Assembly: GCF_002844595.1 (NCBI RefSeq)
Contig: NZ_PJNW01000015.1
Coordinates: 1 to 64,000 of the forward strand
Direction: 5' to 3'
DNA: 64,000 nt
Origin: Pleomorphomonas diazotrophica
Lineage (GTDB): Bacteria; Pseudomonadota; Alphaproteobacteria; Rhizobiales; Pleomorphomonadaceae
Positions within the stretch are counted from its first letter, which is position 1. Each line of letters begins with the position of its first letter. Below the pieces are notes generated by a model. The model was not told the origin of the DNA. It did no database searches and saw only the letters and a list, made by a program, of their open reading frames with translations. Shown here piece by piece: positions 3,345 through 53,043 of the stretch. Both the position numbers and the translations under genes were made by a program.

Positions 3345-3400
3345 TCAAGACGCAGTTCCGGACGCAAAACCGGTTCCCACTTTTGCTGGAACTGCTCTAA
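3345..3400. repeat. Family A repeat, copy 1
   Basis: The sequence TCAAGACGCAGTTCCGGACG, then CAAAACCGGTTCCCACTTTT, then GCTGGAACTGCTCTAA forms a stem from GCAGTTCC/GGAACTGC around the internal palindrome AACCGGTT. Four other copies lie at 39306, 43797, 44906 and 52202. The last bases provide the TAG stop of the antiporter on the minus strand. Confidence 0.8.
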
Positions 3401-37974: not shown

Positions 37975-38964
37975 ATGGCGCGCATCATCCGCTTTCACGA
38001 TTTCGGCGGCCCCGAGGTCTTGCGCATCGAGGAGATCGACCCTCCGAGGCCCGGCCCGGGCGAGGTGCAGATCGCCGTCAAGGCGCTGGGCCTCAATCGG
38101 GCGGAGGCGTTGATGCGCGCCGGCCGCTACATCGAGAGGCCCGCCCTGCCGTCCGGCCTCGGGCTGGAGGCGGCGGGCATCGTCACGCGGGTCGGCGACG
38201 GCGTCAGCGGGCTGGCGCCGGGCGACGCCGTCAGTGTGGTGCCGCCCATCTCCCAGGCGCGATATCCCGCCTATGGCGAGGCCGCCACCTTCCCGGCGGC
38301 GCATGTGGTCAGGCACCCGGCCTTTCTCGACTGGACGACGGCGGCGGCCGTCTGGATGGCCTATCTCACCGCCTATGGCGCGCTGATCGACATCGCCCGG
38401 CTCGGCCCCGGCGAGGCGGTGGCCATCACCGCGGCCTCAAGCAGCGTGGGCCTCGCGGCGATCCAGACCGCCAACCGGGTGGGCGCGACGCCCATCGCCG
38501 TCACCAGGACCTCGGCCAAGCGGCAGGCCCTGCTGGACGCCGGCGCCGCGCATGTCGTCTCCATCGCCGAGGGCGGCTTGGACACGCGGCTCGCCGCCCT
38601 CAGCGGGGCGGACGGGTTGCGCCTTGCCTTCGACGCGGTCGGCGGCCCGATGGTTGAGCCGCTGGCGGCGGCCCTGGCGCCCGGCGGCATCCTCATCGAG
38701 TATGGCGGGCTGAGCCCGGAGCCGACGCCCTTCCCACTGTTCACGGTGCTGAGCAAGACGCTGACGCTGCGCGGCTACCTGGTGCACGAGATCATCCGCG
38801 ACGCCGCGCGCCTTGAGGCGGCCAAGGCCTTCGTTCTCGACGGCCTTGCTGCCGGCGCGCTCAGGCCGGTGATCGCCAGGGTGTTCGCCTTCGACGAGAT
38901 CGTCGAGGCGCATCGCTACCTGGAGGCCGGCGATCAGCTGGGAAAGATCGTGGTGACGGTGTAG
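37975..38964 (+). CDS. Zinc-type alcohol dehydrogenase-like quinone oxidoreductase
   Basis: The 329-residue MDR protein starts MARIIRFHDFGGPEVLRIEE, then the GroES-like domain with LGLNRAEALMRAGRY and LGLEAAGIVTRVGDGV, and a Rossmann domain with VAITAASSSVGLAAIQTANRVG. It lacks the catalytic zinc cysteines, as expected for the quinone reductase (QOR) class, which transfers electrons from NADPH. ATG 37975 follows TTGGAGTG. An inverted pair ACTCCA/TGGAGT lies in the promoter it shares with the divergent LysR gene. Confidence 0.9.
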   Translation: MARIIRFHDFGGPEVLRIEEIDPPRPGPGEVQIAVKALGLNRAEALMRAGRYIERPALPSGLGLEAAGIVTRVGDGVSGLAPGDAVSVVPPISQARYPAYGEAATFPAAHVVRHPAFLDWTTAAAVWMAYLTAYGALIDIARLGPGEAVAITAASSSVGLAAIQTANRVGATPIAVTRTSAKRQALLDAGAAHVVSIAEGGLDTRLAALSGADGLRLAFDAVGGPMVEPLAAALAPGGILIEYGGLSPEPTPFPLFTVLSKTLTLRGYLVHEIIRDAARLEAAKAFVLDGLAAGALRPVIARVFAFDEIVEAHRYLEAGDQLGKIVVTV

Positions 38965-38992
38965 CCCGGCCGCGTCACGCCGCCTTCCCCGG

Positions 38993-39268
38993 TCAGGAGT
39001 AGGGGCTGGGGGCGCATGGTCCGCAGCTCGGCGGCGAGCAGCTCGGCGAGCAGTAGGGTTCGCAGGCGGGATCGCAGGGACCACAGGGCGCGCATGCCGG
39101 CTGGCACATGGGATCGCACGAACTCGGCTCGCACACCGGATCGCAGACGCTGTCCGGGCCGCAGGGGTCGCACGGGTTGCAGGTCGGGTCGCATTTGTCC
39201 GGTTCGCAGCCGGCGATGAGCATGGGACGCGCTGGATCGGTCAAGAGTTCAAACTTGTAACTCGGCAT
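38993..39268 (-). CDS. Cys-X-Pro-repeat protein, candidate radical SAM-modified RiPP precursor
   Basis: The 91-residue protein has a 20-residue cysteine-free N-terminus (MPSYKFELLTDPARPMLIAG) followed by a region with 17 cysteines, every one followed by X-Pro (CEP, CDP, CNP, CGP, CQP, CAP, CSP). Cysteines are three to six residues apart. There is no signal peptide. A strong AAGGAG precedes ATG 39268, and the gene lies 37 bp after a radical SAM/SPASM enzyme with an N-terminal peptide-binding-like region. Leader plus repetitive core plus maturase is the layout of ribosomal peptides with thioether or similar crosslinks. An unmodified metal-binding protein is the main alternative. No known family was recognised. 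Confidence 0.75.
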   Translation of the reverse strand: MPSYKFELLTDPARPMLIAGCEPDKCDPTCNPCDPCGPDSVCDPVCEPSSCDPMCQPACAPCGPCDPACEPYCSPSCSPPSCGPCAPSPYS

Positions 39269-39305
39269 GATCCGTCTCCTTCCGGTGTTGGTCTTCCTCT
39301 TCCTC

Positions 39306-39361
39306 TCAAGACGCAGCTCCAGCCGGAAAACCGGCTCCCAGCTTGGCTGGAGTTGCTTTCA
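39306..39361. repeat. Family A repeat, copy 2, forming the end of the radical SAM gene
   Basis: The variant TCAAGACGCAGCTCCAGCCG, then GAAAACCGGCTCCCAGCTTG and GCTGGAGTTGC keeps the family A stem (GCAGCTCCAGCC/GGCTGGAGTTGC) with compensating changes in both arms. The minus strand through it encodes the final residues ATPAKLGAGFPAGAAS and stop of the maturase. Confidence 0.75.
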
Positions 39362-40556
39362 GTGTGGCAATGAATGCGTCTGGTGCGGTCCATGTGCCGG
39401 TTTCCGGCGCGTAGGTGCAGTACCAGGGCTTGGCAAACCTGCCGGCGCCGCAGGCGTCGGGGCGGCAGTCGAAGCAGAAATAGCGGTATTCGCAGGCGGC
39501 GCAGCTTTCGACGCGGTCCTTGGTCAGGTGCCGGATGCCGGGATCGAGGATGTCGGCAAGCGCTGATGACCTGAGGTTGCCGTGGCTGAAGCGCCGTTCC
39601 ATGACGCAGGGAAAGACCTCCAGGTGGCAATCGATGTAGATGCTGCGGGCAAAGCAGTTGTGCCCCTTCGACTTCGCGCGAACATCGGTGAGGGACTGGG
39701 TGCGGCGGAAGTTGTCCTGGGTGATGAGCTTGCGTCTCAGCATGGCGTCGTCATAGAGCGTGAGGTCCGCCCGCCCGGTCAGCCGCACCAGATCGCGCTT
39801 GTCGACCGCATAGGCATCGCTCCGGCCCGCGTCGATCCCGGCGATTTCCACGCCGCAGGTCCGGTATTTCACGCCGTGGGCGCGAAGCAGCTCGATGGCG
39901 CGGGTGGTGCGCCTGAATGACCCGCGGGTGCGGGTCATCCGGTCATGCTGGGCCTCGTCACCCGAATGGAGCGACAGCGCGACGCTGACGCCCAAGGCCT
40001 TGAACTCCCTGACGAGGGGCTCCTTCAGCAAGGTCGCGTTGGTGAACACCTCGACGGCATCGAGGCGATCGCGGTACTCACGGATCCAGGCCGTCAGCCT
40101 CGACCCGAGCAGCAGGGGTTCGCCGCCGATGAACTGGACGTTGCGGATGCCGTAATCGCCGAGGCGGCGCATGGCGAGGCGGAGGTCCTCCTCGGCCATG
40201 TCGTCGCCGCTGGTTGGGCAGGAGCCCTCGTAACAATGCAGGCAGCGCATGTTGCAGCGCTGGGTGACTTCGATCCATGCGAAGTCCACGCGCCGATCGC
40301 CCAAGGGCGAGGTCTCAAGACTATCGAGAGAACAGGGCTCGTCGACGGCCCGAAGAAGGCCGGCCACTCCCAGTTGTTCGATCAGGCCGGTCTCGTCGGC
40401 CGCGAGCCCGTCGTCGCCTTGGCCCGCGAGCCGCTGGAGAAGGCGGAGCGTGTCGTTGTTGATGTGGTAGACCGCGCCGCTGCCGCCGTGGAAAAGGCAA
40501 TGGCTCACCGCGCCCAGAATGAGGTGAACCTGTTGATCGAGCCGATAGAAGCTCAT
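39306..40556 (-). CDS. Radical SAM/SPASM domain peptide maturase
   Basis: The 416-residue enzyme has the radical SAM motif C101-NMR-C105-LH-C108 for the first 4Fe-4S cluster, GGEP at 144-147 for SAM binding, and a C-terminal SPASM region (C301, C310, C317, then C352, C355, C361, C364, C369, C380) for auxiliary clusters. Residues 1-75 form a compact helix/strand region (HCLFHGGSGAVYHINNDTLRLL) resembling a PqqD-like RiPP recognition element. It probably modifies the cysteine-rich protein encoded next. The last ~17 residues and the stop come from a family A repeat. A weak ribosome site precedes ATG 40556. Confidence 0.92.
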   Translation of the reverse strand: MSFYRLDQQVHLILGAVSHCLFHGGSGAVYHINNDTLRLLQRLAGQGDDGLAADETGLIEQLGVAGLLRAVDEPCSLDSLETSPLGDRRVDFAWIEVTQRCNMRCLHCYEGSCPTSGDDMAEEDLRLAMRRLGDYGIRNVQFIGGEPLLLGSRLTAWIREYRDRLDAVEVFTNATLLKEPLVREFKALGVSVALSLHSGDEAQHDRMTRTRGSFRRTTRAIELLRAHGVKYRTCGVEIAGIDAGRSDAYAVDKRDLVRLTGRADLTLYDDAMLRRKLITQDNFRRTQSLTDVRAKSKGHNCFARSIYIDCHLEVFPCVMERRFSHGNLRSSALADILDPGIRHLTKDRVESCAACEYRYFCFDCRPDACGAGRFAKPWYCTYAPETGTWTAPDAFIATLKATPAKLGAGFPAGAAS

Positions 40557-40732
40557 GGCGCGTCATCCAGCGGACAACCGTTTTCGCCAAGACGTGGAGC
40601 CGTCCCGAGAGGCTCCCTTGCGCGAGATCGGCAATCATACGCCGCCACACGCACGGGCTGAATTTCCAAATACTACTGATGAACTTAGGGATGTAGCACG
40701 AAGACAGAGATATCGTGCCTGCCGTCCTCCAC

Positions 40733-41341
40733 TTACTCCGCCGCCACCACCTCGCCCGCCAATATCCGGTCGACGATGGTGGCGAGCTTCTCGTCGATGA
40801 TGTGGAGATATTCCGTCCAGTCGCTGAACTTGGTCAGCTCGGCCTTGCCGTCGGAGATGCCGCGGAGGCCGAGGAGGGGGACGGCGAATTTCTGTGAGGC
40901 GCGCCAGAGGGCGAAGGTTTCCATGTCGACCATGTCGGCATCGACAAGGTCGTAGGCGGCGCCGGAGACGACGTTGCCGCCGGTGGAGAGGCTGGCTTCC
41001 GGCACGCCGGGGACGCGGAGCGGCAAGGGTATGACGGCGGGCAGGTCGAGGAGCGGCGTGGTGCCCTTCGGAAAGCCGAGGGGCGAGGCGTCGATGTCGC
41101 GATAGGCGATGGACGTCGCCTGATAGACCTCGGCGTGGCGGAGGCGGCGCGAGCCGGCCGAGCCGAGGCTCACCACCAGCTTCGGCAACTCGCCGCGATG
41201 GGCGCGGGCGCTGAGCTCGGCGGTGAGGTTGACGGCCGCCTCCACCGGGCCGACGCCGATCATCACCGGCTTGATGCGCGCCTTGAGCGCCGGGCCGTAT
41301 TCCTGCTCGGCGGCCATGGCAAACAGCGTCGTCTCGCGCAT
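40733..41341 (-). CDS. 5'-methylthioadenosine/S-adenosylhomocysteine nucleosidase-like protein
   Basis: The 202-residue protein belongs to the purine nucleoside phosphorylase fold: LFAMAAEQEYG at the N-terminus, VMIGVGPVEAAVNLTAEL, LVVSLGSAGSRRLRHAEVY and DMVDMETFALWRASQKFAVPLLGLRGISDGKAE, in which MVDMETFA and the SDG motif carry substrate contacts. It is shorter than typical MTAN. The family cleaves MTA, SAH and 5'-deoxyadenosine. GAGGAG lies close upstream of ATG 41341. It is 176 bp upstream of the radical SAM gene on the same strand, so it could clear 5'-deoxyadenosine made by that enzyme; this link is inference. Confidence 0.85.
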   Translation of the reverse strand: MRETTLFAMAAEQEYGPALKARIKPVMIGVGPVEAAVNLTAELSARAHRGELPKLVVSLGSAGSRRLRHAEVYQATSIAYRDIDASPLGFPKGTTPLLDLPAVIPLPLRVPGVPEASLSTGGNVVSGAAYDLVDADMVDMETFALWRASQKFAVPLLGLRGISDGKAELTKFSDWTEYLHIIDEKLATIVDRILAGEVVAAE

Positions 41342-41475
41342 GAGCGCTCCTCTCGAATCCCTGGTCGACGCTGCGACGCTAGCGGAACTTGGCCGGTGCC
41401 GCGAGGCAGGAGTGCGCTTTATTGCCTTGCCGCGATGCTCTAGGCTCTTCCGTAGCATCTGCCTCCGGAGGAGCC

Positions 41476-41952
41476 ATGAAAGCCGTTGCCCTTGCCCTCG
41501 CGGGTCTCGCCGCCCTTGCCACCGCTGCCCGCGCCGAGGACGACCGCATCTGGCTGGGGCTCGACTATGGGGACGGTGCCACGCTGGTCTACGGCATGCC
41601 CGAAAGCGACGACGCGCCGATCGCCTTCGTCTGCGAGCTGCCGGGGCGCGAGCTGATCCTCGACGTGTCGCTCGGCGAGGCCTTCGAGCCGCGCGCGGGC
41701 GAGGTGGCGGTGACGATCACCGCGCCGCCGGTGAAGGGCAGCGTCTCGATGGCCGGCAGCGTCGAGGTCTCCGAGGAGACCGGCGACGTCATCCTGGAGG
41801 CGAAGGGGCGCCTGACGCCGGCGCTGTCGAGCATGCTCTCCAAGGGCAGGGAGCTCACCATCGCCCTGGGCAAGGAGAAGCGGACCTTCCCGCTCACCGG
41901 CGCCAAGGACGGAATGCGGCCGTTTGCGAGCGCCTGCGGCGAGCCGAGCTAG
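41476..41952 (+). CDS. Secreted protein of unknown function
   Basis: The 158-residue protein has a signal peptide (MKAVALALAGLAALATAARA) and a mature beta-rich part: DRIWLGLDYGDGATLVYGMPESDDAPIAFVCELPGRELILDVSL, ending FPLTGAKDGMRPFASACGEPS. Two cysteines (in FVCEL and SACGE) could form a disulfide. It resembles other short periplasmic alphaproteobacterial proteins of unknown role. ATG 41476 is preceded by CCGGAGGAGCC. It is divergent from the nucleosidase-like gene. Confidence 0.75.
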   Translation: MKAVALALAGLAALATAARAEDDRIWLGLDYGDGATLVYGMPESDDAPIAFVCELPGRELILDVSLGEAFEPRAGEVAVTITAPPVKGSVSMAGSVEVSEETGDVILEAKGRLTPALSSMLSKGRELTIALGKEKRTFPLTGAKDGMRPFASACGEPS

Positions 41953-41997: not shown

Positions 41998-42747
41998 TTA
42001 TCCCGCCTCTGCCATCAAGGCTTCCGCATCGCGCCCGGCCGCGAGACGAAATGGCGATGCCGGATCGGTGGCGCATCGCCAGATCGCCGCCGCCACGTCG
42101 GAGGCGCGGGTCGTCGGTCCCGAGCGATCGCGCATGTGGGCTACGATGCGCTCGATCATCGGTGCATAGTCGGCGTTGTCGCTGCCCCTGAGATGAGGCA
42201 ATCCATTGGCGCCGAACCGCGTTTCAGGTGCGCTTCCCGGTATGACCAGATGGGTGCGCACGCCGAACGGCTTCACTTCCAGGGCCAGCGTCTCAGTCAG
42301 GGAGTTCACCGCGGCCTTGGTGGCGCGATAGACGCCGACCATGGGCAACGACTTCAGCGTGGTCGACGAGGAGACGTTGATGATGACGCCCGATCGTCGC
42401 TGGCGAAACGATGGCAGCAGTGCCTGGATGATCGCAAGCGTGCCCAGCGTGTTGGTTTCAAACATGGCGCGCGCCACGCCGAATTCGGTCAGTTCGACGG
42501 GGGACGGCACACCGAAACCGGCGTTGTTGACCAGAACGTTGATCGGACCAGCCTCGGCTACCGCGTGAGCGGCGCTAGCCGCATCGGTCACGTCGAGCCG
42601 CAGGAGGCGGAGCCTCTCGGATGCCGGAAACAGCTCGGCATTGAGCGTCCGCATGGTCGCGACCACGTCCCAGCCGCGCTGGAGGAACAGCCGCGCTGTC
42701 TCCAGCCCGAAGCCGGATGAGCAGCCGGTAATGAAGATTGCAGGCAT
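41998..42747 (-). CDS. SDR family oxidoreductase, paralogue of 52273 gene
   Basis: The 249-residue SDR starts MPAIFITGCSSGFGLETARLFL, with VNNAGFGVPSPVEL, VINVSSSTTLKSLPMVGVYRATKAAVNSL (S, Y, K) and a C-terminal region typical of the SDR group with TGCSSGFG. The sequence is clearly related along its length to the SDR at 52273-53043, and both are divergent from related AraC genes. It is probably controlled by the AraC protein starting at 42843. The substrate is unknown. Confidence 0.92.
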   Translation of the reverse strand: MPAIFITGCSSGFGLETARLFLQRGWDVVATMRTLNAELFPASERLRLLRLDVTDAASAAHAVAEAGPINVLVNNAGFGVPSPVELTEFGVARAMFETNTLGTLAIIQALLPSFRQRRSGVIINVSSSTTLKSLPMVGVYRATKAAVNSLTETLALEVKPFGVRTHLVIPGSAPETRFGANGLPHLRGSDNADYAPMIERIVAHMRDRSGPTTRASDVAAAIWRCATDPASPFRLAAGRDAEALMAEAG

Positions 42748-42770
42748 AGGTTTCTCCGCCTCTTGATGCT

Positions 42771-42825
42771 GAAATCAATCTAGCGGCGTTGACCAGGACG
42801 AACTATGGTTGAGAGTATTGATTTC
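42771..42825. promoter_or_regulatory. Inverted repeats in AraC/SDR divergent promoter
   Basis: GAAATCAAT (42771-42779) and ATTGATTTC (42817-42825) are perfect nine-bp inverted arms with a 37-bp gap, centred in the SDR/AraC intergenic region. Each arm could bind one AraC-family monomer. Confidence 0.5.
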
Positions 42826-42842
42826 TTTTGAAATGGTCCTGC

Positions 42843-43787
42843 ATGAAGATCGACCCGCTTGCCGAAGTCGTCACACTGCTCCAGCCGAGGGCCCGCTTTT
42901 CCAAGCTGATAGAGTGCGGCGGCTCTTGGAGGTTCCGGCGAAAGGGAACGGGCGATCCCTTCTACTGCGCGGTGCTGGAGGGGCAGTGCCGTGTGACGGT
43001 CGACGGGCAACCGCCCCTGATCTTGCGCGCGGGGGATTTCCTGCTGGTCCCGGCCATGCGCGACCTGATCAAGGAAAGCCTGGACTTGCCGCAGGGCGAG
43101 ACACCGGAAGAACCGATCGAGATCGGCGAGGGGCGCTTTCGTGTCGGCCGGGAAGACGAGCCGCCAAACCTCTGCATCCAGATCGGGCATTGTTCGTTCG
43201 GATCGCCCGATGTGGCACTGCTCGTGCCGCTGCTTCCGCGTCTTGTCCTGGCGCGCGGGGAGCCGCGGCTCGCGACGCTGACGCAATTGGTCGGCGAAGA
43301 GACCCGCGCACATCGGCCCGCGCGCGAGCTTGTGCTCGAACGGCTGCTGGAGGTGCTGCTGATCGAGGCTTTGCGATGCGGCTGCGAGACAGAAAATGCA
43401 CCGCCGGGTCTGGCTCGCGGTCTTGCCGACGATCGCGTTGCGGCAGCGCTGCGCGTCCTCCATGCCCGCCCGGAACGTCCTTGGACGGTCGCTGGGCTCG
43501 CTTCCGAAGCGTCTTTGTCGCGGTCGGCTTTCTTCGCTCGCTTCAGCCGGACGGTGGGCATGCCACCGATGGAATATCTTCTGGCATGGCGAATGGCGTT
43601 GGCCGGACGGCTTCTCCGCGGGCAGGAGCTCAGCTTGGATCAAGTCGCCGAGCGCGTCGGCTACAGTTCATCCAGTTCCTTCAGCGTCGCCTTTGCCCGA
43701 TACGCGGGTTTGTCACCGGCTCGCTATGGCCGGATGTATCTGAATGGCCAGACTGGAGAGCCGGCGCAGCCGCCGTCAACTATCTAG
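42843..43787 (+). CDS. AraC family transcriptional regulator (cupin-type sensor)
   Basis: The 314-residue protein has an N-terminal AraC_binding_2-like cupin (MKIDPLAEVVTLLQPRARFSKL, FYCAVLEGQCRVTVDGQPPLILRAGDFLLVPA) and two C-terminal HTHs (WTVAGLASEASLSRSAFFARFSRTVG; LDQVAERVGYSSSSSFSVAFARYAGLSPARY). ATG 42843 is chosen over an upstream TTG. It is divergent from an SDR gene. A second AraC/SDR pair at 51213-53043 is paralogous in both genes. Confidence 0.92.
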   Translation: MKIDPLAEVVTLLQPRARFSKLIECGGSWRFRRKGTGDPFYCAVLEGQCRVTVDGQPPLILRAGDFLLVPAMRDLIKESLDLPQGETPEEPIEIGEGRFRVGREDEPPNLCIQIGHCSFGSPDVALLVPLLPRLVLARGEPRLATLTQLVGEETRAHRPARELVLERLLEVLLIEALRCGCETENAPPGLARGLADDRVAAALRVLHARPERPWTVAGLASEASLSRSAFFARFSRTVGMPPMEYLLAWRMALAGRLLRGQELSLDQVAERVGYSSSSSFSVAFARYAGLSPARYGRMYLNGQTGEPAQPPSTI

Positions 43788-51212: not shown

Positions 51213-52112
51213 TCACGCCGCCGCGCCGCGCGCGTATCTCGCCGGCGGCTCGCCGACGTGGCGGGAGAAGGCGATGGTGAAGGTGCTGGCGGAGGCGTAG
51301 CCGGTGCGTTCGGCCACCTCGGCGACGCCGGCCGCGCCCCGGCGCAGCATGTCTTTTGCCAGCGCCATGCGCCAGGCCAGGAGATATTCCATGGGCGCGA
51401 GGCCGACGACGCGGCGGAAGCGCTCGAAGAAGACGGAGCGGGAGAGGCCGGCTTCCCTCGCGAGCTCCGGCACCGTCCAGGGGCGCGTCGGGTTCTCGTG
51501 CAGGCGACGGAGGGCGGCGGCGAGCCGCTCGTCGGCCAGGCCGCGGATGAGGCCGGGCGAGGCGGTGGCGCCGGGCAGGGCGCGGAAGGCCTCGATCAGC
51601 ATCACCTCCAGGAGATGGGCGAGCACCACGTCGCGGGCCGGGCGGGCGGCGCGCGCCTCCTCGTCCACCAGCTCCACCAGCGTCGAAAGGCGCGGCGCGC
51701 CGCGCACGTGGATGAGGCGCGGCAAGAGCGACAGGAGGAGCGCGGTGTCGGCCGAGCCGAAGGCGCAATAGCCGACCACGAGGCGCGTGTCGGCCGGCCC
51801 GTCCGCCCGGCCCATGCGATAGTGGCGCGGCCCCACCTCCACCGGCTGGGTGACGACGCCCTCGGGCGGCGGCGCGAGGCTGGTGGTGGTGAAGTCGTTG
51901 GCCGAGGGGATCAGCACGAAGTCGCCCTTCTCGGCGATCAGCGGCGGGTGGTCGTCCACCGCGAGGCGGCAAGCGCCGTCGAGCACGGCGGCATAGAAGG
52001 GGCGGCCGGCCTCGACGCGGGTGACGCGCCAGGCGCCGGCGGCCGAGACCAGCTTGGAATAGCGGGCGCTCGGCTGGAGGAGGGTGACGACCTCGGCGAG
52101 CGGATCGGTCAT
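51213..52112 (-). CDS. AraC family transcriptional regulator, paralogue of 42843 gene
   Basis: The 299-residue protein parallels the AraC protein at 42843 (MTDPLAEVVTLLQPSARYSKL against MKIDPLAEVVTLLQPRARFSKL) with cupin sensor and two C-terminal HTHs (WTVPELAREAGLSRSVFFERFRRVVGLAPMEYLLAW; EVAERTGYASASTFTIAFSRHVG). ATG 52112 is preferred, with CCGGA upstream; a longer form starts at 52148. It is divergent from the SDR gene at 52273, with a repeat and a palindrome between them. Confidence 0.92.
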   Translation of the reverse strand: MTDPLAEVVTLLQPSARYSKLVSAAGAWRVTRVEAGRPFYAAVLDGACRLAVDDHPPLIAEKGDFVLIPSANDFTTTSLAPPPEGVVTQPVEVGPRHYRMGRADGPADTRLVVGYCAFGSADTALLLSLLPRLIHVRGAPRLSTLVELVDEEARAARPARDVVLAHLLEVMLIEAFRALPGATASPGLIRGLADERLAAALRRLHENPTRPWTVPELAREAGLSRSVFFERFRRVVGLAPMEYLLAWRMALAKDMLRRGAAGVAEVAERTGYASASTFTIAFSRHVGEPPARYARGAAA

Positions 52113-52139
52113 TTCCGGACTTTCGTAAAAGAATATCGG

Positions 52140-52151
52140 ACGATGCATCGT
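52140..52151. promoter_or_regulatory. 12-bp palindrome upstream of AraC gene
   Basis: ACGATGCATCGT is a perfect palindrome 28 bp before the AraC start codon, in the gap shared with the divergent SDR gene. It does not match the inverted arms of the paralogous locus at 42771. Confidence 0.35.
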
Positions 52152-52201
52152 AGCACGTCCCGGATGTCCAATCTATCTTCAAGCCCTCAACAGCTTCTTC
52201 G

Positions 52202-52251
52202 GACGCAGTTCCGGACGCAAAACCGGTTCCCACTTTTGCTGGAACTGCTCA
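52202..52251. repeat. Family A repeat, copy 5, in a divergent promoter region
   Basis: GACGCAGTTCCGGACGCAAA, ACCGGTTCCCACTTTTGCTG and GAACTGCTCAGG lies 21 bp before the SDR start codon. Unlike the other copies, it sits upstream of a gene rather than at gene ends. Confidence 0.75.
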
Positions 52252-52272
52252 GGTATTTTGAAAGGACATCCC

Positions 52273-53043
52273 ATGACGACGGTCTTGATCACCGGCTGTT
52301 CCTCGGGCTTCGGGCTTGAAACGGCCAAGTATTTCCTGGAGCGCGGCTGGAACGTGGTCGCCACCATGCGCAAGCCGCGCGAGGATCTCCTGCCGGCGTC
52401 GGAGCGGCTCAGGGTGTTGCCGCTCGACGTGACGGATGCCAAGAGCATCGCTGAGTGCGTCGCGGCGGCCGGGCCGATCGACGTCTTGGTCAACAATGCC
52501 GGCGTCGGCTTCTTCAATCCGCTGGAGGGCACGTCGGCCGAAAACGCGCGGTTGATCTTCAAGACCAACACGCTCGGCACCATGGCCATGACGCAGGCGG
52601 TGCTGCCGCAGTTCCGCGAGCGGCGCGCGGGGGTGATCGTCAACGTGTCCTCCAGCGTCACGGTGGCGCCGCTGCACCTACTCTCGGTCTACACGGCCAG
52701 CAAGGCGGCGGTGAACGCCTTTTCGGAAAGCGTGGCGCTGGAGCTCGAGCCCTTCGGCATCCGCGTGCGCATCGTGCTGCCCGGCCGGGCGCCGGAAACC
52801 GACTTCGGCCAGAACGCCCGCGCGCTGATGGCCGGCGGCATCCCCGAGCCCTATGGCGACATCGCCGAGGCGGTGTTCGCCAAGTGGGCCCAGCAGCCGG
52901 TGGACGAGGTGACGCACGCCATCGACGTGGCCGAGGCGGTGTGGCGGGCGGCGACCGATCCGAATTGCCCCATGCGGCTGCCGGCGGGCGCGGACGCCGT
53001 GGCGCTGGCGGCGAGGGTGGGAAGAGAGTCCGTCATGGCGTGA
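52273..53043 (+). CDS. SDR family oxidoreductase, paralogue of 41998 gene
   Basis: The 256-residue SDR begins MTTVLITGCSSGFGLETAKYFLERGWNVVATMRKPRE, then VNNAGVGFFNPLEG and VNVSSSVTVAPLHLLSVYTASKAAVNAF with catalytic residues. It shares the TGCSSGFG cofactor loop and most of its sequence with the SDR at 41998-42747. ATG 52273 follows AAAGGACATCCC, a modest site. It is probably controlled by the divergent AraC protein. Confidence 0.92.
   Translation: MTTVLITGCSSGFGLETAKYFLERGWNVVATMRKPREDLLPASERLRVLPLDVTDAKSIAECVAAAGPIDVLVNNAGVGFFNPLEGTSAENARLIFKTNTLGTMAMTQAVLPQFRERRAGVIVNVSSSVTVAPLHLLSVYTASKAAVNAFSESVALELEPFGIRVRIVLPGRAPETDFGQNARALMAGGIPEPYGDIAEAVFAKWAQQPVDEVTHAIDVAEAVWRAATDPNCPMRLPAGADAVALAARVGRESVMA

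Follow-up and report, generated by a model that had tools for sequence, protein, structure and literature searches.

In a stretch of 64,000 nucleotides from Pleomorphomonas diazotrophica, referred to below as the window (RefSeq assembly GCF_002844595.1, contig NZ_PJNW01000015.1, positions 1 to 64,000 of the forward strand), we identified two adjacent genes that may well constitute a complete peptide maturation system. One of them encodes a radical S-adenosylmethionine (radical SAM) enzyme with SPASM-type cysteines, the other a small peptide built largely of Cys-x-Pro (C-x-P) units. We consider it somewhat better than an even chance, with a probability of about 0.55, that the pair is a minimal cassette for a ribosomally synthesised and post-translationally modified peptide (RiPP), in which the enzyme modifies the C-x-P array unit by unit, most likely by forming thioethers. 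The enzyme-substrate relation of the pair is strongly supported. Related enzymes carry this motif within their own chain, and together with them the gene pair points to an undescribed class of modified peptide.

The enzyme gene is followed by the peptide gene on the minus strand, 37 bp separating the two (Table 1). The original prediction, made from the sequence of the window, had described a 416-residue radical SAM protein with CX3CX2C, GGEP and SPASM-type cysteines, and the motif positions confirm this description. It had placed 37 bp downstream a 91-residue partner with a strong ribosome site and a leader-like start of 20 residues, which was found as described. The 17 cysteines that it had counted, all in C-x-P and spaced 3-6 residues apart, are indeed all (17/17) located in such units, from residue 21 on. 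Shuffling of residues 21-91 (100,000 shuffles) produced 4.5 units on average and 12 at most, versus the 17 observed. Among 1051 stop-to-stop segments of at least 30 amino acids in the window, the peptide is the sole one with at least four C-x-P units per 50 amino acids. Within the units, X varies freely; Cys and Pro are constant.

Orthologues of the peptide with 84-85% identity are present in Pleomorphomonas oryzae and in the metagenome-assembled genome (MAG) CTSoil_106. In all three peptides of this Pleomorphomonas group every Cys belongs to a C-x-P unit (17/17 in the window, 15/15 and 16/16 in the orthologues). The peptides differ in Cys at positions 65 and 85, and neither difference leaves a Cys outside C-x-P. 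The ratio of nonsynonymous to synonymous change (pN/pS) of the peptide is 0.15 and 0.20 against the two orthologues; that of the enzyme is 0.27 against P. oryzae. Judged from these sequence comparisons, the peptide gene is genuine and evolves under purifying selection. The peptide has no NCBIfam match at E ≤1, although weak matches of a sequence this short and biased may be lost in the HMMER filters, and it exceeds the cut-off of no Pfam model.

The enzyme belongs to the radical SAM superfamily (Pfam Radical_SAM PF04055, 79.2 bits with a cut-off of 29.5). Its cluster motif is C101-x3-C105-x2-C108 and GGEP occupies residues 144-147. Nine cysteines are found in the SPASM-type region (301, 310, 317, 352, 355, 361, 364, 369 and 380), which scores 19.2 bits with Pfam SPASM PF13186, just below the cut-off of 21.5. 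At E ≤1 the enzyme matches 73 NCBIfam families, and none among the best 25 of these 73 attains its cut-off. The best match is the StsB sactipeptide maturase family (84 of 625 bits); two other thioether maturase models among the same best 25 of 73 reach 56 of 850 bits (AlbA) and 46.4 of 340 bits (PapB). The QhpD maturation model TIGR03906 is not among the best 25 of 73, and it scores 51.3 of 453, below its cut-off, for the Lentisphaeria relative described below. A viperin-like role in defence was considered and dropped. The NCBIfam viperin model gives 52.6 of 180, below its cut-off, viperin-like scores are confined to the radical SAM core, and the PADLOC pVip match (55.8 bits) covers residues 96-218 of the enzyme only.

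The best fold matches of the enzyme model are SkfB (top), TigE, SuiB, ChlB and 5why, with E values from 5e-9 to 3e-7. Among them, 5why is a sactipeptide enzyme, which we take to be CteB, and several of these proteins presumably carry a recognition domain. The N-terminus of the window enzyme is predicted to begin with strands followed by helices (E3-6, E10-14, E19-23, E29-32, H34-45, H53-64, E68-71), a fold resembling a RiPP recognition element (RRE). Residues 11-30 have a predicted local distance difference test score (pLDDT) of 57-64, and the other residues within 1-80 reach 78-90; folded alone, the domain gave a pLDDT of 49 and no usable model. As far as the model goes, leader recognition by this N-terminal domain is likely.

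Separate C-x-P peptides are not restricted to Pleomorphomonas. A sheep-rumen Lentisphaeria MAG encodes an enzyme with 38% identity to that of the window over residues 9-399, in which seven of the nine SPASM-type cysteines (all except 310 and 369) are conserved. The gene of a 55-amino-acid peptide, preceded by a good ribosome site, lies 56 bp upstream of the enzyme gene. Six of its nine Cys are in C-x-P, and its 17-residue start includes one other cysteine. In a search of 197 genomes around the Lentisphaeria genome, only that genome itself matches. A 33-amino-acid open reading frame (ORF) with two C-x-P units is located on a Photobacterium plasmid, 63 bp before a distant relative of the enzyme (22% identity); on this plasmid (L024:3836-6069) two radical SAM genes come after the two-unit ORF.

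In a second layout the motif is part of the enzyme itself. Plasmid-borne relatives from actinobacteria (Streptomyces, Amycolatopsis, Embleya) and some proteobacteria (Rhizobium, Paraburkholderia) carry a C-x-P tail at their C-terminus. The fused set comprises 23 proteins, 22 of them from 28 plasmid records and one from a prophage; six records, two further S. clavuligerus ones among them, lie outside it. At least three tail units are present in 20 of the 23 proteins and at least two in 21, their number varying from 2 to 8, and the enzyme bodies hold 0 or 1 unit. Altogether, 87 of 93 tail Cys are in C-x-P (78 of 78 outside L025 and L026), and in 19 of the 21 Cys-bearing tails this applies to every Cys. 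Ten aligned fused enzymes, one being the prophage protein, are devoid of the N-terminal domain and of the second half of the SPASM cysteines. The fused layout also occurs in a genome of the window's own order (G271), where 5/6 tail Cys are in C-x-P. Judging by eye from the translations, the G271 enzyme (L010:3590-14662) is surrounded by ParB-like, ArdC-like and large helicase genes, as in mobile elements.

The gene next to the fused enzyme codes for a methyltransferase in 13 of 16 annotated actinobacterial records. Two such methyltransferases tested with TIGR04188 scored 253 and 237 of 380 bits, and in L027 the gene following the fused enzyme matches no family. Individual records have further features. 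On a Streptomyces plasmid (L034:2495-5753), the fused enzyme, a methyltransferase and a hypothetical protein are followed by a second radical SAM gene. In L128:1-2040 the fused C-x-P enzyme is located close to haaN, whose annotation is that of an N-acetyltransferase for a cyclophane RiPP. In L022:2071-2955 a radical SAM gene annotated as oxidoreductase lies near an integrase, and an in-frame C-x-P stretch comes directly after its stop codon. Some relatives are plasmid-borne, prophage-encoded or close to recombinase genes, and these settings suggest a role in competition or in the fitness of the elements.

A third layout emerged from a search of 398 genomes of the window's phylum. At E ≤1e-35, 39 of them match, including the window's own, and 29 other loci (L037-L065) were obtained; nine matched genomes yielded no locus and are not part of this count. 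An upstream precursor that combines an RR-x-LL...PP signal with two or more C-x-P units is present in 25 of the 29 loci, L039 and L047 among them. The usual motifs of these precursors are S-C-x-P-[ST]-A-C-x-P-C, C-A-P-C-F-C-A-P-C or C-C-P-C-[VIL]-P. From its motif, we read the signal as a putative twin-arginine translocation (Tat) signal and call this branch Tat-type. Two loci (L046 and L057) end too near for the presence of a precursor to be judged. In those of the loci inspected that extend far enough, PqqD-like and kinase-like genes come next. Two of the PqqD genes were tested and matched in Pfam with E values of 1e-14 and 2e-10; one kinase reached 68.7 of the 200 needed for HprK-related kinase A (TIGR04352), and two precursors tested matched no NCBIfam family. 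The hosts in this branch are Proteobacteria with small genomes, and the operon consists of a Tat-like Cys-rich precursor, the radical SAM enzyme, PqqD and an HprK-related kinase.

To all loci a common rule was applied, three C-x-P units within 30 residues in any ORF. It is passed by 4/4 array loci, 22/24 fused loci and 6/29 Tat-type loci, and by 0/30 control loci. The controls are SPASM loci from the window's order, picked on Pfam family alone. The unit count separates arrays and tails from controls. Relatives were collected by similarity to the enzyme. In one of the search models (A4), the consensus of 304 positions took in its members' C-x-P tails, which start near position 270; since most matches to A4 in the phylum search end at 257-279, the tail columns can have contributed little, and the C-x-P of the Tat-type branch lies in a separate gene. 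Two human-gut phage contigs (L021 and L023) encode other radical SAM proteins, have no more than one C-x-P per 30 amino acids in any ORF and were taken as outgroups. The one other match of the class search (L036) reaches two units in an ORF and three in none. On L023, a contig filed as phage, two short similar ORFs rich in spaced Cys and without C-x-P pairs follow the radical SAM gene and resemble a further pair of RiPP precursors.

In a 54-row tree, the C-x-P enzymes and the Photobacterium one are split from 24 other radical SAM proteins with support 96/92. A first tree with other outgroups recovered the same branch (93/89), and in it array, fused and Tat-type enzymes were each grouped (97/94, 96/92 and 98/98, respectively), with L058 apart. 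Both trees were midpoint-rooted and contain several long branches, and what we claim from them is the grouping, not the order of events. Fourteen of the 29 Tat-type loci entered the trees. Eight of the 30 control loci gave no core by the rule used for the tree rows and were kept outside the tree and inside the C-x-P count. Left out of the first tree were L034, the second Photobacterium enzyme and the outgroup locus L018, which the motif rule missed; the second tree lacks seven outgroup rows that the first had, including L036 and L021.

Several observations count against the reading of the pair as a RiPP cassette, or weaken parts of it. Tat-type precursors also carry Cys outside C-x-P, and for this reason the Tat-type branch is weaker evidence. 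When the rule is relaxed to two units, 4 array, 22 fused, 26 Tat-type and 8 control loci pass. Because two units occur in some ORF of 8 of the 30 controls, the argument for the Tat-type branch comes from where the pair sits, a conserved motif in a constant position, and not from the count. No C-x-P precursor was found in L054, and in L058 a 73-amino-acid ORF with a single unit is present, no other precursor being found. In the fused layout, one partial match (L130) has no tail by the rule used, in L025 only 3 of 7 tail Cys are in C-x-P (shuffle P 0.07), and in the mycobacterial prophage protein (L022) an in-frame stop precedes the C-x-P stretch. As to the enzyme, Pfam detects no PqqD in its N-terminus, which the original prediction had described as PqqD-like, and hhalign of PqqD with this region gives a probability of 0.5% (E 0.11), so that an RRE is unrecognised by sequence. 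Its model is poor beyond about residue 240, and the TM-scores of the fold matches are only about 0.3.

Enzyme and peptide occur together. The enzyme was found in three of 20 family genomes searched (14 of the genus), and the peptide is significant in the same three; two further peptide matches (G002 and G013) are weak, with E 0.07. The original prediction had named peptide homologues that commonly lack the enzyme as the case that would speak against it, and this was not seen in the 20 genomes, the plasmids or the viral contigs. An order-wide search of 397 genomes gave four that match the enzyme at E ≤1e-20. Three scans of viral contigs revealed no relative of the pair, and neither did plasmids searched with the island DNA and the peptide, although some of the peptide may have been hidden by low-complexity filtering.

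Comparison with a congener (G019) delimits the pair as an island. There, the alcohol dehydrogenase and phosphorylase genes adjoin, and the window has about 1.75 kb of extra DNA between them. The DNA of P. oryzae that matches the island comprises the pair and its upstream region only (window 38993-40707, in two pieces), and the pair adjoins an adenosine deaminase gene. In MAG CTSoil_106, one side is visible on a 3.9-kb contig and the upstream ORF is a different one. Immediate neighbours of the pair thus differ among the window, P. oryzae and the MAG. In P. oryzae only about 2.8 kb separate the phosphorylase gene from the enzyme gene; a single old insertion that was later rearranged, or loss from congeners, may therefore also account for the pattern. 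The gene pair is a unit of patchy occurrence and probably mobile. Inside the window island there is no exporter and no protease, and the product may, as the original prediction suggested, stay in the cell. Phosphorylase (in the window) and adenosine deaminase (in P. oryzae) were considered as partners for salvage of 5'-deoxyadenosine and rejected, as both occur in congeners without the cassette. The claim of a radical SAM maturase with its precursor is supported by the two-gene island, by co-occurrence, by recurrence in another phylum and by the fused motif in relatives.

Table 1. Positions of the gene pair, its parts and associated features in the window
Feature	Positions	Strand	Evidence
Putative precursor, 91-amino-acid Cys-x-Pro array peptide with 17 Cys and 17 C-x-P	38993..39268	-	ORF with ATG
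Leader-like residues 1-20, Cys-free	39209..39268	-	FELLTDPA conserved in the two orthologues
C-x-P array, putative modified core	38996..39208	-	shuffles reach at most 12 units
Ribosome-binding site AGGAGA of the peptide gene	39275..39280	-	AAGGAG kept in two orthologues
Radical SAM/SPASM enzyme, 416 amino acids, putative maturase	39306..40556	-	ORF with ATG, family matches, cysteine motifs
N-terminal domain of the enzyme, residues 1-75, RRE-like predicted fold (strands then helices)	40332..40556	-	structure model; without Pfam match
Radical SAM core, residues 95-238, CX3CX2C and GGEP	39843..40274	-	Pfam
SPASM-type cysteine region, residues 301-380	39417..39656	-	Pfam and cysteine positions
Extra DNA relative to the empty site of congener G019, ends within a few bases, only these two genes	38985..40740		genome comparison
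63-base insertion with intergenic repeat, rewrote the 3' end of the enzyme gene; absent from two orthologues	39289..39351		orthologue comparison

The junction of the two genes has changed in the window. In both close orthologues the enzyme ORF crosses the ribosome site of the peptide and overlaps the peptide start by 20 bases; by this comparison, the 37-bp gap of the window pair is a derived state. The last residues of the window enzyme are supplied by the 63-base insertion. A repeat within it (39324-39340) is also present at 3363, 43813, 44924 and 52216, which makes five matches against 0.33 expected. Since only the very end of the enzyme changes, its function was probably kept. An Rfam scan of 38500-41500 gave nothing above gathering scores, and no promoter was detected in the region of the gene pair. 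One terminator-like stem was found, inside the repeat insertion, no more than expected by chance. Elsewhere in the window, a pair of genes for a short-chain dehydrogenase and an AraC/cupin regulator is present twice (41998-43787 and 51243-52980), the copies being about 56% identical.

We propose the following mechanism. The peptide would be made with a leader of about 20 Cys-free residues and an array of 17 Cys-x-Pro units. Its leader would be bound by the N-terminal domain of the radical SAM/SPASM enzyme, and the 5'-deoxyadenosyl radical would then act along the array, one unit after another. The sulfur of each cysteine would most likely be coupled to a carbon within its own C-x-P unit, giving a thioether and a loss of 2 Da per unit. 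Branches with a separate precursor have extra N-terminal sequence or a separate PqqD and the aligned fused enzymes have neither, a distribution expected if the domain serves to bring the substrate. The sequence evidence makes it very probable that the enzyme acts on the C-x-P array. Given this, thioether formation is the chemistry we moderately favour. The variable X and the constant Cys and Pro suggest that proline, or a backbone shaped by it, is part of what the enzyme reads, and that the bond or its geometry involves both Cys and Pro. That proline is itself the bonded residue seems, from the sequences, rather doubtful. Unlikely, too, is the most far-reaching version, a cross-phylum Cys-x-Pro class with a bond from sulfur to the proline ring (alpha or delta carbon), one large branch of which would modify its own C-terminal tail in cis.

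The best family match of the enzyme and several of its best fold matches are sactipeptide or other thioether maturases, as would be expected of an ordinary sactipeptide or ranthipeptide system with a Pro-rich precursor. The chemistry would then overlap with the one proposed here, and C-x-P would mark no separate class. Against this stand the scores of the thioether maturase models among the best 25 of 73, far below their cut-offs, a precursor that belongs to no NCBIfam family, and the recurrence of C-x-P in three layouts. We regard such an ordinary system as less likely than not.

A different chemistry is also conceivable. Proline is not the usual acceptor residue in sactipeptides and ranthipeptides, and its conservation here would fit an enzyme that modifies C-x-P units without forming thioethers, for instance by epimerising, desaturating, hydroxylating or C-methylating Cys, X or Pro, free thiols being kept for metal or redox use. 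The methyltransferase genes that follow the actinobacterial fused enzymes indicate that further tailoring may occur in relatives. Nevertheless, Cys is as invariant as Pro, SPASM enzymes often convert Cys-rich substrates to thioethers, and the window island has no methyltransferase. We find this alternative doubtful.

We consider it very unlikely that the C-x-P stretch is a metal or iron-sulfur scaffold, providing cluster ligands in the fused enzymes and a metallothionein-like protein in the window: the 24% Cys in peptide residues 21-91 (17/71) and the ten aligned fused-tail enzymes devoid of the second half of the SPASM cysteines would suit it, but tail units range from 2 to 8, a spread that fixed cluster ligands would not show, the window and Lentisphaeria enzymes keep their SPASM cysteines alongside a separate array, and cluster binding does not explain proline at +2 in nearly every unit.

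The maturation of a C-x-P array by the window enzyme would resemble several known systems. Sactipeptide maturases (StsB, AlbA, SkfB) likewise combine a radical SAM/SPASM enzyme with a small Cys-rich peptide beside it; the window pair differs from them by scores far under the family cut-offs, by the repeated C-x-P array and by an island without exporter or protease. CXXX-repeat peptides pair with radical SAM enzymes, and these and ACGX-type systems share with the window a short repeated Cys motif, whereas the window peptide falls into no NCBIfam model and its constant feature is Pro at +2. Borosins, in which a methyltransferase is fused to its own core peptide, parallel the fused-tail relatives in having a modifying enzyme and a putative substrate motif in one chain, yet they employ a different enzyme superfamily, and in the window enzyme and substrate are separate genes. 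Cassettes with HprK-related kinase A and PqqD (TIGR04352) are similar to the Tat-type relatives, in which PqqD and an HprK-related kinase are encoded besides the precursor and the radical SAM enzyme; the tested kinase is below the cut-off, however, and the window island has no kinase. Ranthipeptide enzymes (PapB, SCIFF/CteB) are SPASM enzymes that act on repeated Cys motifs as well. PapB is reported to link Cys to Asp or Glu (PMC9413430); in the window array, no acidic residue stands at a constant place and the motif is C-x-P. Among the 22 new radical SAM pathways of PMC9062424, the text section 4 includes an Asp-Cys repeat pathway, Cluster 59, a minimal cluster in which a recombinase and a radical SAM enzyme accompany a peptide that repeats a Cys dipeptide; its motif is Asp-Cys, in contrast to the C-x-P of the window peptide. 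A C-x-P pathway is absent from that section, most of the 22 pathways being given only in the figures or supplements. In our searches of open-licence full texts, we found no recognisable class defined by C-x-P, though a mention in a large list is possible.

The system described here would be a case of radical SAM peptide maturation, new in its target motif and, in relatives, in the fusion of substrate to enzyme. As far as our searches of open-licence full texts show, enzymes that carry their own substrate would be a novelty in the peptide chemistry of radical SAM proteins. A mature product bearing as many as 17 repeated cross-links would be unusual. The two-gene cassette is close to the smallest possible system, which should make its reconstitution easy. 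Finally, as C-x-P appears in three layouts (separate array, enzyme tail and Tat-type precursor), the substrate of the whole enzyme clade becomes predictable and testable.

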